A DNA stretch of 37,497 nucleotides from a virus. Under the pieces are notes generated by a model. That model was not told the DNA's origin. It searched no databases and saw only the letters and a list, made by a program, of their open reading frames with translations. Shown in pieces: positions 7,372 to 29,133 of this stretch. Made by a program: the position numbers and the translations under genes. The DNA lies in the IMG/VR virus record IMGVR_UViG_3300025010_000147, positions 1 to 37,497 of that record, one strand, 5' to 3'. Positions within the stretch are counted from its first letter, which is position 1; every line of letters starts with the position of its first letter.

Positions 7372-7553
7372 CCGGCACATGGCACCCGCCCCAATGCGGC
7401 GAGTGTAAATCCCCCGCCACTCCGCGCACCGTCCTTATCTGGAGCGGCGGCAGTGGACGGGACAGCAAAATGATATGTGGTGACTGCCAGGATAGGCAAT
7501 GGAGGTTGAGAGATGGGAAAAGATGTGAGAATGAGGATGGCGCGGGTATCTGA
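7359..7553 (+). CDS. Small zinc-ribbon-like protein (64 aa)
   Basis: The GTG start has CAGGAG about eight bases upstream, inside the previous gene. The protein contains CGECKSPATPR and, 27 residues on, CGDCQDRQW, a four-cysteine zinc ribbon of the CXXC-CXXC type. It is one of several such mini-proteins in this region. Function unknown. Confidence 0.55.
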   Translation: MSKVTGTWHPPQCGECKSPATPRTVLIWSGGSGRDSKMICGDCQDRQWRLRDGKRCENEDGAGI

Positions 7554-7564
7554 GGAGGTGGCTA

Positions 7565-7936
7565 ATGGGTAAGGAAGCCCGCGCAAAACTAGCAGCACCT
7601 GAGACCATGCTCCCCCGCGCAGACGTGCCGGTTATCGCGATGCTGGCGCTGATGGACGCGCTACTGGTTGACATGGAGAGGACGGCGCATACAGTCACCG
7701 AAAGCAGCAGGTTGCGAGAACATCGCGCACGGCTGAGAGCGTCGATGCGGAAGGACGTGGAGAGGTACAACGGAACGTTCGCCGGCAGAGTTACGGATGA
7801 GCTCATCCAGAAATGCGACCGCTACCTCTGCCGCGTTCAGGATGCCATGGATACCTTTTTTGAAAACATCACACCGGAAGACTTGGCAGAAATGGAGCGC
7901 GTCAAAGCGAACTGGCCGCAGCACAAAGACAATTAA
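7565..7936 (+). CDS. Hypothetical helical protein (123 aa)
   Basis: The ATG follows GAGGAGGTGGCTA. The protein is predicted almost wholly helical, with charged segments (RLREHRARLRASMRKDVERY) and a C-terminal acidic helix. It has no recognised motif. The following intergenic region has the same leader (GGGAGGGGAAGATGG) as the gene after next. Confidence 0.6.
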   Translation: MGKEARAKLAAPETMLPRADVPVIAMLALMDALLVDMERTAHTVTESSRLREHRARLRASMRKDVERYNGTFAGRVTDELIQKCDRYLCRVQDAMDTFFENITPEDLAEMERVKANWPQHKDN

Positions 7937-7981
7937 CCATCCTCTGCCCTGTGCGGTCTGGGGATATTTGGGGAGGGGAAG

Positions 7982-23135: not shown

Positions 23136-23165
23136 TTGACTTTTCGTATACCATTGTGGTATCTT
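23136..23165 (+). promoter_or_regulatory. Dedicated promoter of the second HNH gene
   Basis: TTGACT (23136-23141), an 18-base spacer and TATCTT (23160-23165) form a sigma70-like promoter in the 61-base gap after the capsid gene. The -10 box overlaps the left arm of a 13-bp inverted repeat, so its transcripts would lack most or all of that arm. Confidence 0.55.
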
Positions 23166-23189
23166 GCTGACAAAGGAGATACCACAATG
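23152..23189 (+). promoter_or_regulatory. 13-bp inverted repeat covering the HNH start codon
   Basis: CATTGTGGTATCT (23152-23164) is perfectly complementary to AGATACCACAATG (23177-23189), with a 12-base loop. The right arm ends with the ATG start and the loop side holds the AAAGGAG ribosome site. In capsid read-through mRNA this stem should block initiation. Confidence 0.75.
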
Positions 23190-23852
23190 CGAAAACAATG
23201 CACGGTTGACGGATGTGAAGAAAACGTAAAAGGCTTGGGTTTCTGCGCTAAGCACTACCAGCAGTACAAAAAGGGGCGGGACCCGCACGACAAGACACCT
23301 CCCCCCCCCAAGGTGTGCAGCGTAGAAGGATGCAACAGGCCCCACACAGCGCACAGCTTCTGCTCCATGCACCTATTGAGGTGGCAAAAGGGTCAAGACC
23401 TCAGGACGCCGAACAGGAACGGGCTGTCATTAAGAGAGAAATTTGACAAGTATGTTGTAAAGGGCGACCAGTGCTGGGGGTGGAAGGGCCATAAAAACGG
23501 TGACGGGTACGGGACCATTAAGGACAGCACCGATTACAGTGGCAAGAAGGCCCACAGAGTTTCTTACGAACTGCATGTAGGCAAAATCCCCAAGGGAATG
23601 CTTGTTTGCCATAAGTGTGACAACCCTGGATGCGTTAACCCTGACCACCTTTTCCTCGGAACCCAGCATGACAACATGATTGACATGGCGATAAAGGGCA
23701 GGCACACGGGCAAGTTAACCCCTGATGAGGTTGCCAAGATAAGAACGTTGTCAGGGACAGACACCCACAAGAACATAGCTTCACTCTTTGGGCTAAGCCA
23801 ACAAACAGTGTCAGCAATCATCAACCGTAAAACATGGAAGCACCTTCCATAA
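23187..23852 (+). CDS. Free-standing HNH endonuclease with zinc fingers and HTH
   Basis: The 221-residue protein has two N-terminal C-x(3-4)-C...C-x2-H units (CTVDGCEEN...GFCAKHY and CSVEGCNRP...SFCSMHL), probable zinc fingers. An HNH_3-type nuclease core follows at about residues 85-165: HRVSYELHVGKIPKGMLVCH, then GCVNPDHLFLGTQHDN. The C-terminus (LTPDEVAKIRTL to LFGLSQQTVSAIINRKTW) is a helix-turn-helix. Such enzymes nick or cut DNA lacking the insert and spread with their host gene. The ATG is 23187; upstream in-frame codons lie within the promoter. Confidence 0.92.
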   Translation: MRKQCTVDGCEENVKGLGFCAKHYQQYKKGRDPHDKTPPPPKVCSVEGCNRPHTAHSFCSMHLLRWQKGQDLRTPNRNGLSLREKFDKYVVKGDQCWGWKGHKNGDGYGTIKDSTDYSGKKAHRVSYELHVGKIPKGMLVCHKCDNPGCVNPDHLFLGTQHDNMIDMAIKGRHTGKLTPDEVAKIRTLSGTDTHKNIASLFGLSQQTVSAIINRKTWKHLP

Positions 23853-24554: not shown

Positions 24555-24813
24555 CGCCTACAAAGCCGTGTACTACGTCCTTTCGGATGACGGGCTCGTC
24601 TCATGGGCCTACTCCGCAAGCGACGAAGCCGACATTCCCGACCGTTTCAGCCTCTCGCTGATAAACCTCATCGCCGCCGAAATTGCCGACTTCTACAGCG
24701 TTCCCCCACCGGGGGAGGGGTGGCTGGCAACCAAGGAGATGGCAACGCGACAAATCCGTAAGCAGCTTGCCAGTGGACAGCCGACAGAGACGGTTACTGC
24801 GGAGTACTACTGA
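24457..24813 (+). CDS. Head completion / gp4-like tail accessory protein
   Basis: The ATG at 24457 has GAGGTGG six bases upstream. The 118-residue helical product (VIGKLAEKVMQKLGVFDR to DIPDRFSLSLINLIAAEIAD) resembles the P22 gp4-type accessory factors that bind under the portal. It is shorter than P22 gp4 (166 residues). The neighbours agree: gp10-like protein follows immediately with a TGATG overlap. Moderately sure of the class. Confidence 0.6.
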   Translation: MVIGKLAEKVMQKLGVFDRSSGIAAEDLENVADAYKAVYYVLSDDGLVSWAYSASDEADIPDRFSLSLINLIAAEIADFYSVPPPGEGWLATKEMATRQIRKQLASGQPTETVTAEYY

Positions 24814-26270
24814 TGCAGACCCGCTCTCTCCCCATAGGCAACGGCGTCACCCTGGACATCAACGACACCTCTGCAAAGGACGGCGTTTCGATTTCCTTCG
24901 TCAACGCGTACACCGACCGCAGCGGCGCAATCCGCACAGTACCCGGATGCACCGAATACGCCGACACCGGAGCAGGCGATGTGCCGGTATGGTCCTACTA
25001 CTCCACCGACCTTGAGGTATTGGTTATCGTGGCAGGCGGGCGGATTTTCACGCAGACTGAGCAGGATGGGGCGCTCATCGAGGTATCCGGCGCGACCATT
25101 TCTCTGACCTCCCCTCCGACCTTCACCGAAGATGCCGACAACATCTTTTTCGCCGCCGACTCCGTGATTTACAAGTTGCAAGGAACCGCAGCAACCGCCG
25201 TTCCGAATTCGCCTTTGCACGTGACGAGCTTGGCCTACATCGGCGGCTACCTCAAGGCAAGGGGAGAGCTGGCAACTAGCGCAGTTGCAGGCGATACGCA
25301 CTACAGCGACGATAAAGCCAACGGGTACGCGGCATGGGAGGTCTACAACAACGAGTCCCGCCCTGACGCGCTGATGGCGATTGTGGTGGCTTACGAGCAG
25401 ATCTACAACATCGGGCGCACGTCGCTTGAGGTCAGCTACATCGACGGCACCGTACCTTTTAGCGTCAACAAGAACGCCGCGCAGCACTTTGGGACCATGG
25501 CGCCTCACTCGGTAGTTTTCGACGGCGAGAGCCTGTACTACCTCACGGAAGTGGCGAAGAGCCGAAAGATCATCCAGCTTGCCGGTGGCGGCAGTCCTCA
25601 AATTATCTCCTTCCCCATTGACGTGCCAATAGAGAAGTTTGAGAGAGTGGACGACGCGCAGGGCTTCATTATGGCATGGGCGGGGCAGAATGGGTACGCG
25701 ATCACCTTCCCGACCGCCAACGCCGTAGTGGATGAGCAGTACTGGACCGGCATCACCCTTTTCTATCACCTGCAGAGTAAGGCATGGATCATTCTCGGCC
25801 AATGGGACGCAGCGACAGCGACCTATGGACCCTATCGCGGTGTCTCCTTTACCTTCGTGGAGCCTTGGGGCTTGCGGCTCATCGGAGGCAGGGACGGCAA
25901 GCTGTACAAGCTCCAGGCTACGCAGGGGCAGGATTATACGGACGCACCGGAATTCCTGCACAGATGGCGCGATAACGGGACGAAGGAATGGGGCAACGGG
26001 CGGCAAGTGTCGCTAGGGCTGGCAGGGAGATACGAGCAGTTCCCCTCCATCCGGCAGTGTGGCGCATACCGCAGCAGACAGCATCAGTTCATCTTTACCG
26101 ACCACACCGACGCAGGGGAGATATTCCGCGCTTCGATCAAGACCGGCCACATCTCACACAAGGTACCGAACAAGAAATCCGCAGTAATGTACCGCTATGA
26201 CGTGCAGTGCGGGCAACCGGAATTTATGCTTAACGGCGTGGTCGAGCAGTTCGACGTGCTTAGGAGCTAG
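24813..26270 (+). CDS. Packaged DNA stabilization protein, P22 gp10-like
   Basis: The 485-residue protein matches the Phage_stabilise family. It begins MQTRSLPIGNGVTLDINDTS and has a GCTEYADTGAGDVPVWSYYS segment, repeated beta-propeller blades with SVVFDGESLYYLTE and IMAWAGQNGYAITFPTANAV, and a C-terminus with MYRYDVQCGQPEFML. P22 gp10 plugs the tail channel below gp4 and keeps packaged DNA inside. Together with the portal and gp4-like gene it defines a P22-type tail machine. The ATG overlaps the previous stop. Confidence 0.9.
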   Translation: MQTRSLPIGNGVTLDINDTSAKDGVSISFVNAYTDRSGAIRTVPGCTEYADTGAGDVPVWSYYSTDLEVLVIVAGGRIFTQTEQDGALIEVSGATISLTSPPTFTEDADNIFFAADSVIYKLQGTAATAVPNSPLHVTSLAYIGGYLKARGELATSAVAGDTHYSDDKANGYAAWEVYNNESRPDALMAIVVAYEQIYNIGRTSLEVSYIDGTVPFSVNKNAAQHFGTMAPHSVVFDGESLYYLTEVAKSRKIIQLAGGGSPQIISFPIDVPIEKFERVDDAQGFIMAWAGQNGYAITFPTANAVVDEQYWTGITLFYHLQSKAWIILGQWDAATATYGPYRGVSFTFVEPWGLRLIGGRDGKLYKLQATQGQDYTDAPEFLHRWRDNGTKEWGNGRQVSLGLAGRYEQFPSIRQCGAYRSRQHQFIFTDHTDAGEIFRASIKTGHISHKVPNKKSAVMYRYDVQCGQPEFMLNGVVEQFDVLRS

Positions 26271-26271
26271 T

Positions 26272-26715
26272 ATGGAATGTTGGGTAAGTCGTGAAGCGTT
26301 AAATGAGATGGTGTCAGAAGGTGAGCGTGTGTTCCCTCTAGAAACGGGGGGGCTATTGCTGGGGTATTGGGGCAATGGCTCGCCAGTTGTTACAACAGCG
26401 ATAGGCCCCGGCCCAAAAGCGACACATGAGCGGTTAAACTTCGAACCCGATTACGACTGGCATACATTAGAAGTTGGCAGGCTTTACAAAGATAACGATA
26501 AGTTGTTCTATCTCGGAGATTGGCACACTCATCCATGTGGGCCGTCATTCCCTAGTGAGATGGACACTGGCGTGTTGCACATGCTTAAAAACAACGAAGA
26601 CGCTCAAACGCCAAAACCCTTGATGCTAATTCTTGGTAACCACCTTGACCGCTTAGGAGCGCATTGTCTGACTTCAAATGGGGTAGAGTCGCTAGATATA
26701 AAGGTATTTGACTAA
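26272..26715 (+). CDS. JAB/JAMM (MPN) metalloprotease
   Basis: The 147-residue protein carries a complete JAMM zinc site: Glu24 in PLETGGLLLG, then His85-Thr-His87-Pro, six residues, Ser95, two residues, Asp98 (DWHTHPCGPSFPSEMD). This is the signature of Prok-JAB isopeptidases that remove ubiquitin-like proteins or cut similar C-termini. The ATG follows TAGGAG. The gene is visibly richer in A and T than its neighbours and lies between tail genes of a podovirus, where lambda-type tail-tip JAB/NlpC proteins would not be expected. The target is unknown; a defence-related or virion-processing role is possible. Confidence 0.9.
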   Translation: MECWVSREALNEMVSEGERVFPLETGGLLLGYWGNGSPVVTTAIGPGPKATHERLNFEPDYDWHTLEVGRLYKDNDKLFYLGDWHTHPCGPSFPSEMDTGVLHMLKNNEDAQTPKPLMLILGNHLDRLGAHCLTSNGVESLDIKVFD

Positions 26716-26741
26716 TGGCGGGCGAGAACCCGCGTAAATGC

Positions 26742-27126
26742 TTTAGCCAGCCGGCTATACAAGACAGACAGAAAGGGAGACAGACATGATCATCAAAATT
26801 AAGCAAGGCGCAGTAGATCAAAACTCTTGGCGGTTCCACGATGGCGTTCATGAGTTCAGCTATGCAACCGTGCAACGCTCCGATATCCCTCTCTTAGGCG
26901 GTGTGCCTCATAACGAGCAGATGGGTATTCAGTATGAAGGTGACGATGGTGTTGTGAGGGAAAATCACTTTGTGGGGGCGGCAATTCCGGATTATTGCCT
27001 ATGCCTTACCTTCATCGACTTTAACGGCAAACCCCACGAGGTTTATACCGACGCCCCGGTTTATCTACTAAATGACGGCGGCAAAACCATAGAGCGTTTG
27101 GCATAACCACTAGCTGGCTGGCTAAA
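26742..27126. repeat. 16-bp inverted repeats flanking a small gene
   Basis: TTTAGCCAGCCGGCTA (26742-26757) and TAGCTGGCTGGCTAAA (27111-27126) are complementary at 15 of 16 positions, with the mismatch a G-U pair in RNA. They bracket the gene at 26786-27106. Each arm is itself nearly palindromic, so each can also fold alone. They could be cassette ends, paired RNA hairpins or recombination sites. Confidence 0.65.
26786..27106 (+). CDS. Unknown small protein beside the JAB gene (106 aa)
   Basis: The ATG follows AAAGGGAGACAGAC. The product is beta-rich and acidic (IIKIKQGAVDQNSWRFHDG, then LGGVPHNEQMGIQYEGDDG, then YTDAPVYLLNDGGKTIERL). I recognise no family. There is no membrane segment, and the C-terminus does not end in Gly-Gly. 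It is AT-richer than its flanks, like the JAB gene, and sits inside the inverted repeat pair. The two may have entered together. A role as partner or substrate of the JAB protein is possible but unsupported by motif. Confidence 0.65.
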   Translation: MIIKIKQGAVDQNSWRFHDGVHEFSYATVQRSDIPLLGGVPHNEQMGIQYEGDDGVVRENHFVGAAIPDYCLCLTFIDFNGKPHEVYTDAPVYLLNDGGKTIERLA

Positions 27127-27137
27127 TAAAGGAATTT

Positions 27138-28073
27138 ATGTCCGAAAACCCGCAAACAACCCTCCCCCCTGTCCCGCGTGAGCCGATAGTAAGCAGCGGC
27201 GGGCAGACCTCAGCGCAGTGGACCCGCTGGCTGCAACAGGTGCAGCGTGTCCTTTCTTTCGCGGGCGGGATAGCTTGGGGGATCGTCAACAAGGCGGGAT
27301 CTCGGTTAACTGACATCACAATCCGCACCCATGCCATGTTGCAGGACGTTCTTGGATGGAGCAGCGACGCCGACGACGCCCAGGTGCGGCACATTTCCAA
27401 CGCTGACGGAAAGGTCTGGCAGGACCATGTTGACGAGACAGACGGCAATCCGCACGGCACCGACCATGCCATGTTGGATGAGATAGCCGAACTCGATCCG
27501 ACCAGCACGGATCCGACCAAGGACCGGCACCTTTCCGACGCACAGGCTAAGGTGTGGCAGGGCCACACGGAAGCCACTGACAACCCTCACGCGACAGACC
27601 TTGAGCAAGTGACGGCAGCAGGGGCCAACTCTCCCATTCTGTTCTCCTGCGGCGGCAAAGTCGCTTTCACCCCCGAAGGCGGCGTGGCCGTCAAGCTCAC
27701 CAACCGCACAGGGGCGGCATCGGTCAAGGGAAGCGTCCTCACCATGTCAACCGCCTACGATAACGCTTTCGCCCTACAGACAGCCGAATATGACGGCGTG
27801 GCAGTGGCATACGAAAGCGGCGTGGCAGACGGGGCGGAATCGTGGGTAGTGGTATCGGGCATCGCGGAAGTGCTACTGAAAGACGGCACAGCGGCGACTC
27901 ACGGCGCGTGGACGAAATGCGCCGATACGGACGGACGCGCAGAGGCGACAACCCCGCCAAGCGGCATAGGGGCGCTTTCTACGGCAGACCATTTCAAGGA
28001 AATCGGGCATTGCATCGAGAGCAAGACCGCAGGAACGGACGTGCTGGCAAAGGTCGTGCTGCACTGGAACTAA
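27138..28073 (+). CDS. Fibre/needle-like virion protein (311 aa)
   Basis: The N-terminal 55 residues are helical (TSAQWTRWLQQVQRVLSFAG). Residues about 60-155 carry a repeated motif: HAMLQDVLGW, then DHVDETDGNPHGTDHAML, then GHTEATDNPHATD. The C-terminal half is beta-rich. Repeated NPHxTD motifs of this kind occur in phage tail fibres and needles, perhaps as metal-binding or trimeric stalk units. It follows the gp10 region, where P22 has its needle gene. The ATG follows ATAAAGGAATTT. Structural role inferred. Confidence 0.6.
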   Translation: MSENPQTTLPPVPREPIVSSGGQTSAQWTRWLQQVQRVLSFAGGIAWGIVNKAGSRLTDITIRTHAMLQDVLGWSSDADDAQVRHISNADGKVWQDHVDETDGNPHGTDHAMLDEIAELDPTSTDPTKDRHLSDAQAKVWQGHTEATDNPHATDLEQVTAAGANSPILFSCGGKVAFTPEGGVAVKLTNRTGAASVKGSVLTMSTAYDNAFALQTAEYDGVAVAYESGVADGAESWVVVSGIAEVLLKDGTAATHGAWTKCADTDGRAEATTPPSGIGALSTADHFKEIGHCIESKTAGTDVLAKVVLHWN

Positions 28074-28086
28074 GGAGAAACGCGCG

Positions 28087-29133
28087 GTGATAAAAACCCT
28101 ATCCCTCTGCCCCACATGCTTCCGCAAGATCGAGGCCGAAATTGTCTACCGTGACGGGATGGTGATGATGGACAAGGAATGTCCTGAGCACGGCAAGTTT
28201 TCAGCTGTTGTGGAAAGGGACATCCAACACGTTTCCAACTTTTACCACCGTGGCACTCTTGGCAACAACAACACCATCATCATCCACACTCACGACCAAT
28301 GCAACATGGCGTGTCCGTGGTGCTATTACCCCATGGGAAGCGAACCGATGCACCCGTTCAGCTATTACGATCAGGTGCTATCGGCCTACAAGGGCTCGTT
28401 CAACCTCCTTATGTCGGGCGGGGAACCTACGTTGAGGCCGGACTTTTTCGAGTTTGCAGCGGAAGCCCACAACTCCGGATGGGGCATCAGTGCCATTACC
28501 AACATGTTGAAGCTGGCGGATCACGATTTCATGATTCAGGCCCTTGGCTCTCCCGCGCTCAACCATGGCGACATGCTCCGGTTCGCCGTTTCAATGCAGC
28601 ACCCGAAGAACTACCCCGAAGAGGTCTATAACCTCAAGGTGCAGGCGATAGAGAACCTTGAACGGGCGCAAAAGCGCGTCATGTGCGCCATGTTTAGCGT
28701 GCAGACACTGGATGAACTGGACTGGATACGCGAATGGTACGACTTGACCAAGGGCGGCTATCCGATGTTGCGAATCCGCACCATGTTCAAAAATTGGGGC
28801 AACAAGGGCGATGAGAACCGGCTTTTCCTGTCGGATCTGCACAAGGCGTTCTTGGAGAAGTTCGCAGACCTTCACCCGCGCATTTCCGAAAGGGTCGAGC
28901 ATTCGAACATGTACTGCATCTATCTGGAAATGGACGGCGGTATGCAGGTATCGCTCAGTTCCGCGCCTACGGTCGAGAATCTTGACTATCATCAGGCATC
29001 GCGGCCCGTCTACATGCTGGCGATGGATGGGCGCTGCTACCCAGTCCCGATAACGCAGGTAATTAATGAGGGAATCGAAGCCGGATGGAAAGACGGTTTT
29101 AGGCTCCAACAAGGAGGTACGGTATGTGGGTAG
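28087..29133 (+). CDS. Radical SAM enzyme (CX3CX2C) with N-terminal zinc knuckle
   Basis: The 348-residue protein has the radical SAM cluster motif CNMACPWC (Cys72, Cys76, Cys79) and the SAM-contact motif SGGEPT near residue 110. The N-terminus has LCPTC (Cys8, Cys11) and CPEHG (Cys32, His35), a zinc-ribbon-like preface known in COG1964-type radical SAM proteins, a group that includes tetraether lipid synthase relatives. Reductive cleavage of SAM would give a 5'-deoxyadenosyl radical; the substrate is unknown. It is not QueE-like, because QueE has a longer first spacing. The GTG follows AAGGAGAAACGCGCG, and the end overlaps an ejection gene by ten bases. Confidence 0.88.
   Translation: MIKTLSLCPTCFRKIEAEIVYRDGMVMMDKECPEHGKFSAVVERDIQHVSNFYHRGTLGNNNTIIIHTHDQCNMACPWCYYPMGSEPMHPFSYYDQVLSAYKGSFNLLMSGGEPTLRPDFFEFAAEAHNSGWGISAITNMLKLADHDFMIQALGSPALNHGDMLRFAVSMQHPKNYPEEVYNLKVQAIENLERAQKRVMCAMFSVQTLDELDWIREWYDLTKGGYPMLRIRTMFKNWGNKGDENRLFLSDLHKAFLEKFADLHPRISERVEHSNMYCIYLEMDGGMQVSLSSAPTVENLDYHQASRPVYMLAMDGRCYPVPITQVINEGIEAGWKDGFRLQQGGTVCG

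Follow-up and report, generated by a model that had tools for sequence, protein, structure and literature searches.

Protein tagging by ubiquitin-like chemistry has recently been recognised as an anti-phage defence in bacteria, and its conjugates are released by enzymes of the JAB/JAMM class. Cap3, the JAMM protease of type II CBASS, cleaves conjugates of cGAS (PMC10097602; PMC11153139), and BilC of the ISG15-like Bil system processes and removes its modifier (PMC11354881). The modifier of Bil, BilA, is a folded two-domain ubiquitin-like protein, and the E2 (BilB) and E1 (BilD) are encoded by separate genes. JAB genes are also found behind E2-E1 fusion genes in operons such as those of Indioceanicola, Hymenobacter, and Arthrobacter plasmids (TIGR02256-like; PADLOC PDLC00890). 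In phages, tail-tip proteins of the lambda gpK type combine a JAB domain with an NlpC/P60 domain and are conserved in the tail module. The JAB gene described here stands alone in the late operon of a podovirus.

The JAB gene and its slot in the podovirus genome

The window, i.e., the whole 37,497-nucleotide stretch of DNA that was analysed, is an IMG/VR virus record with a P22-like gene order (terminase, portal, coat, head closure, and ejection proteins). Matches to the portal (phrog_156), coat (phrog_334), head-closure (phrog_578), and DNA-ejection (phrog_598) PHROGs were found around the JAB gene, in agreement with the podovirus block recognised in the preliminary description. A search for close relatives among sequenced phages found none. 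A contig from a second metagenome (L002) repeats the stretch with 99.7% identity over 10.9 kb and carries an identical JAB gene, and an assembly error is therefore unlikely. The features of the locus are as follows.

24813..26270, + strand: head-closure protein (Hc3), which bounds the variable slot on the left (phrog_578, 1e-20; also the border in siblings)
26262..26266, + strand: AGGAG, Shine-Dalgarno-like, 5 nt before the JAB ATG and within the end of the preceding gene (from the sequence)
26272..26715, + strand: JAB/JAMM metalloprotease, 147 aa, with E24, H85, H87, S95, and D98 (ORF, profile matches, alignments, and model)
26715..26734, + strand: ATGGCGGGCGAGAACCCGCG, which resembles the MAGENP start of the next structural gene in L110-L112 (sibling comparison)
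26742..26757, no strand assigned: inverted repeat, left arm, around the 106-aa cassette (repeat comparison)
26786..27106, + strand: 106-aa protein without assigned function, the slot's second cargo gene (modelled as all-beta, pLDDT 71)
27111..27126, no strand assigned: inverted repeat, right arm, around the 106-aa cassette (repeat comparison)
27138..28073, + strand: probable tail/structural protein that is conserved among the siblings and bounds the slot on the right (sibling comparison)

The ATG of the JAB gene lies one base past the stop codon of the head-closure gene. Its product matches Prok-JAB in Pfam (4e-12; 46 bits, cut-off 25) and the JAB model of PADLOC (1e-24), and these are the only domains detected. 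The active-site set of Glu24, HTHP (residues 85-88, with His85 and His87), Ser95, and Asp98 is present as first described, and E24, H85, H87, S95, and D98 are invariant in alignments with 6, 40, and 45 relatives. An AlphaFold (AF2) model, built from an alignment without plasmid sequences, has a pLDDT of 97.2 and a pTM of 0.91, and its neighbours among solved structures in Foldseek are Rpn11-type deubiquitinases, AMSH, and Cap3 (9ild, TM 0.76). With the Glu...HxHP...SxxD set placed within an MPN fold, the protein belongs among the JAMM (MPN+) proteins. The computations support an intact active site in the right JAMM fold, and predicted catalytic competence is well supported; the protein would likely bind zinc and act as an isopeptidase.

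The base composition of the gene sets it apart from the rest of the phage. Its GC3 is 0.483, compared with at least 0.524 (mean 0.714) in all 748 blocks of 147 codons drawn from 18 other genes of the same phage, which bears out the AT-richer base use noted earlier. Eight sibling phages (L107-L114) were found via the head-closure gene adjoining the JAB gene, with head-closure identities to the window of 98% (L107), 96% (L108 and L113), 90% (L109), 72% (L110), 64% (L111 and L112), and 50% (L114). No JAB was found throughout the eight sibling records, of which several are short contigs (4-8 kb) and one (L113) leaves the slot uncovered. The slot is empty and seamless in L111 and L112, where the head-closure stop codon and the start of the following gene overlap. 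It holds a small HTH_17 gene in L107; a Tad2-like gene (1537-1806; PF11195, 1e-24), a homologue of anti-Thoeris proteins, in L108; a gene for an Rv2179c-like 3'-5' exoribonuclease (7461-7940), a candidate counter-defence gene, in L109; and the 106-aa gene alone, without a JAB, in L110. Because the JAB gene is absent from the siblings, its slot is variable, and its GC3 is an outlier, the gene is best regarded as a recent, optional passenger, consistent with the recent arrival suggested in the preliminary description, and its status as accessory cargo (a ‘moron’) of the podovirus is well supported.

As an accessory gene in a variable locus that houses a Tad2-like gene in a sibling, the JAB gene is a candidate counter-defence gene. 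Tad2, Acb1, and Acb2/Vs.4 are likewise small cargo genes, the Tad2-like gene of L108 lying in the corresponding slot; however, these proteins sequester or degrade nucleotide signals, whereas the window JAB would act on protein conjugation.

The second cargo gene of the slot lies inside a cassette of ~385 bp (26742-27126) bounded by 16-bp inverted repeats (TTTAGCCAGCCGGCTA / TAGCTGGCTGGCTAAA). This gene, together with similar repeats, also occurs in L110 in the same slot and in L158 in another gene neighbourhood, and the cassette is possibly a mini mobile cassette. A fold search with the predicted all-beta model of the 106-aa protein returned no match, and RNA hairpins at the flanks of the gene were no better than those of shuffled sequences. 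The short stretch ATGGCGGGCGAGAACCCGCG before the cassette is probably a remnant of the junction that predates this second insertion. Elsewhere in the window, a radical SAM gene lies within the tail/ejection block (28087-29133), its product having a zinc ribbon of the HMPTM type and a TrsS/Tes-like N-terminus; the gene is present in L107 and was not detected between the corresponding genes in L108 and L109. An HNH endonuclease gene (23136-23852) is located directly behind the coat gene, as is a relative in L114, and none was detected in L109 and L113.

Relatives in bacterial operons and other phages

The bacterial relatives of the window JAB are 31-49% identical to it, and in 71 of 80 loci the gene is located directly behind an E2-E1 fusion gene. 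Operon JABs such as those of Indioceanicola, Hymenobacter, and Arthrobacter plasmids are 36-49% identical to the window JAB. The window JAB is like these operon JABs in its catalytic residues and its region of the tree, and the GPGP, ETGG, and YLGDWHTHP motifs are common to both. In a maximum-likelihood tree without BilC, the window JAB and the JAB of the Mu-like phage L009 are sisters (99/90), and a 96/89 branch that excludes the window JAB unites true Cap3 with other lineages. By this tree, the window JAB appears to cluster with the JABs of bacterial E2-E1 operons, apart from Cap3, with the backbone and deeper branches among the E2-E1-linked JABs lacking resolution. The gene neighbours differ, as the bacterial JAB follows an E2-E1 fusion, usually accompanied by a proline-rich peptide ending in R-x-V-G/A, whereas the phage JAB stands alone, and neither E2-E1 nor the peptide was found in the window or at the viral loci. 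No ThiF-type E1 was found in the phage record, ThiF being the one component covered in the search for a Bil context (BilA, BilB E2, BilD E1), and no E2-E1 match was found in the window. The window JAB may work like the deconjugase of an E2-E1 operon while standing outside such an operon.

In 58 of the 80 bacterial loci, a short peptide that is rich in proline and has an R-x-V-G/A C-terminus is encoded directly upstream of E2-E1, a count that includes L096 through a spurious ORF (QRLVAE), the genuine L096 peptide ending in PRPVGAA. The peptides (L003, 4146-4316; L004, 3989-4165; L043, 3129-3272; and ~55 more) come from many phyla. Their C-terminus is R-P-V-G or one of the close variants R-E-V-G, G-K-V-G, and R-P-V-A, and some extend past the Gly (VGQQ, VGLL, and VGAA), which is like the pro-forms of ubiquitin-like proteins. 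The peptides tested against Pfam and NCBIfam had no family match, and no such peptide was found in the JAB-carrying phages. Judged by sequence, the peptide is a candidate disordered protein modifier or tag, and the simplest reading is that it would be conjugated and that the operon JAB would trim or release it. In the open literature, to which our survey was confined, we found nothing on a proline-rich modifier with E2-E1-JAB, on Bub, or on phage-borne JAMM counter-defence; the peptide may already have been described in subscription papers.

The closest relative of the window JAB is that of the Mu-like phage L009 (48% identity in the search and 50% in the tree), which sits between gpG-like and protease-like genes. 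Its GC3 is 0.485 compared with 0.68-0.80 for its neighbours, and no JAB was found at the corresponding junction of the L009 siblings L160 and L162. With the same query as in the bacterial search, E2-E1 was found near the JAB in none of 19 viral relatives, and of the 13 whole viral records that were checked, 12 lacked ThiF and one (L026) had it. Viral contigs with both an E1 and a JAB were met in a wider pattern scan (e.g., L115 and L119), as expected for prophage-borne operons. The more remote phage JABs (L010, L011/L012, L025, and a myxobacterial prophage set) are mostly near terminase/portal genes. Among these, JABs that are steadily near terminase/portal, as in L010 (7992-8444), L025 (2680-3162), and L013-L024, which include the well-conserved myxobacterial set, may have a different, e.g., structural, role.

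Possible role of the phage JAB

On balance, we favour the reading that the window JAB is an accessory deconjugase that counters a host E2-E1 tagging system. The gene would have been taken from the deconjugase of bacterial E2-E1-JAB operons, or would share a common ancestry with it, and its product would be a zinc JAMM isopeptidase expressed with the late genes, a position that would suit a target among virion proteins as these are synthesised. The enzyme would release target proteins from a small modifier, most likely the proline-rich peptide ending in R-x-V-G, by cleaving the linkage at the C-terminal Gly of the modifier; alternatively, it may trim or destroy the modifier. As an outcome, the tagging defence of the host could neither mark virion parts nor activate an effector. 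We infer both the substrate, an R-x-V-G/A conjugate, and the counter-defence benefit, and on this reading the bacterial peptide-E2-E1-JAB operons would be anti-phage systems. An extra deconjugase need not inhibit defence, since there are CBASS systems in which Cap3 has a defence-promoting effect (PMC11153139). The more specific proposal, that at least two sorts of phage, podovirus and Mu-like, carry a dedicated stand-alone deconjugase disarming a defence that uses as its tag a disordered, proline-rich R-x-V-G peptide, unlike folded ubiquitin relatives or CD-NTases, is offered tentatively and is less likely than not.

The preliminary description had suggested that the gene could reverse the conjugates made by defences such as type II CBASS and Bil, a view that is largely, though not in its target, borne out. 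The character of the window JAB as an intact, stand-alone deconjugase-type JAMM, which it shares with BilC, holds, but the tree and the family scores separate it from Cap3. The two proteins share an enzyme class, the JAMM fold, and the active site, with 30% identity over 76 residues, and Cap3 is the best sequence match among solved structures (7e-19 with a family profile). The NCBIfam Cap3 model NF050170 also matches (4e-9); however, the score of 36.8 bits is far under the cut-off of 200, and a supported branch parts true Cap3 from the clade of the window JAB, and on these two grounds identity as Cap3 was rejected. Moreover, Cap3 is encoded with Cap2 (E1-E2) and a CD-NTase, and searches for ThiF in the phage record and for E2-E1 in the window gave no match; the E2-E1 proteins of the matching bacterial operons, which have the proline-rich peptide upstream, reach 1e-29 to 1e-42 on the PADLOC E1-E2 models, far below genuine Cap2 (1e-255). 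It is rather unlikely, then, that the gene is a phage-borne Cap3 that counters type II CBASS through the release of conjugated CD-NTase. The target is probably neither CBASS nor Bil, as the candidate tag of the operons is a short proline-rich peptide, neither a CD-NTase nor the two-domain BilA, the window JAB being set apart from BilC by the description of that system rather than by sequence. Other substrates of bacterial JAMM proteins are sulfur carriers and SAMPs, and the window JAB has a weak match to a desampylase model (0.002), which would suit a general fitness or host-takeover gene that strips host tags or trims sulfur-carrier or modifier peptides, altering metabolism or lysis apart from defence. 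This is unlikely, given that the window JAB lies in a clade with E2-E1 operons and that a Tad2-like gene occupies the equivalent slot of L108.

A tail-tip or assembly JAB like lambda gpK, or else a head-maturation protease required for the virion, might be expected from the position of the gene, which has head-closure genes on one side and tail genes on the other, all in one orientation, from a weak match (0.003, spanning 27 residues) to a ‘tail’ PHROG, and from the terminase/portal genes that adjoin other phage JABs. Indeed, the JAMM fold and the tail-region location are common to lambda gpK, other tail JABs, and the window JAB. However, the latter has no detectable similarity to lambda gpK and no NlpC/P60 (C40) domain, and it is missing from siblings whose neighbouring genes are 50-98% identical, among which the empty junction of L111 and L112 is seamless; its GC3 also stands against a part in the conserved virion module. 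We consider such a structural role very unlikely. The identity as a tail JAB was rejected on the eight siblings without the gene, the lack of gpK similarity, and the weakness of the PHROG match, and the earlier claim that this is not a tail-assembly JAB is strengthened by the siblings, one of which has the Tad2-like gene in the slot.

If an accessory deconjugase is the true reading, the phage-borne enzyme would be a direct bacterial parallel of viral deubiquitinases. The comparison also points towards a conjugation operon that is widespread and has a very unusual candidate tag, and the phage JAB could help to reveal the function of this operon.
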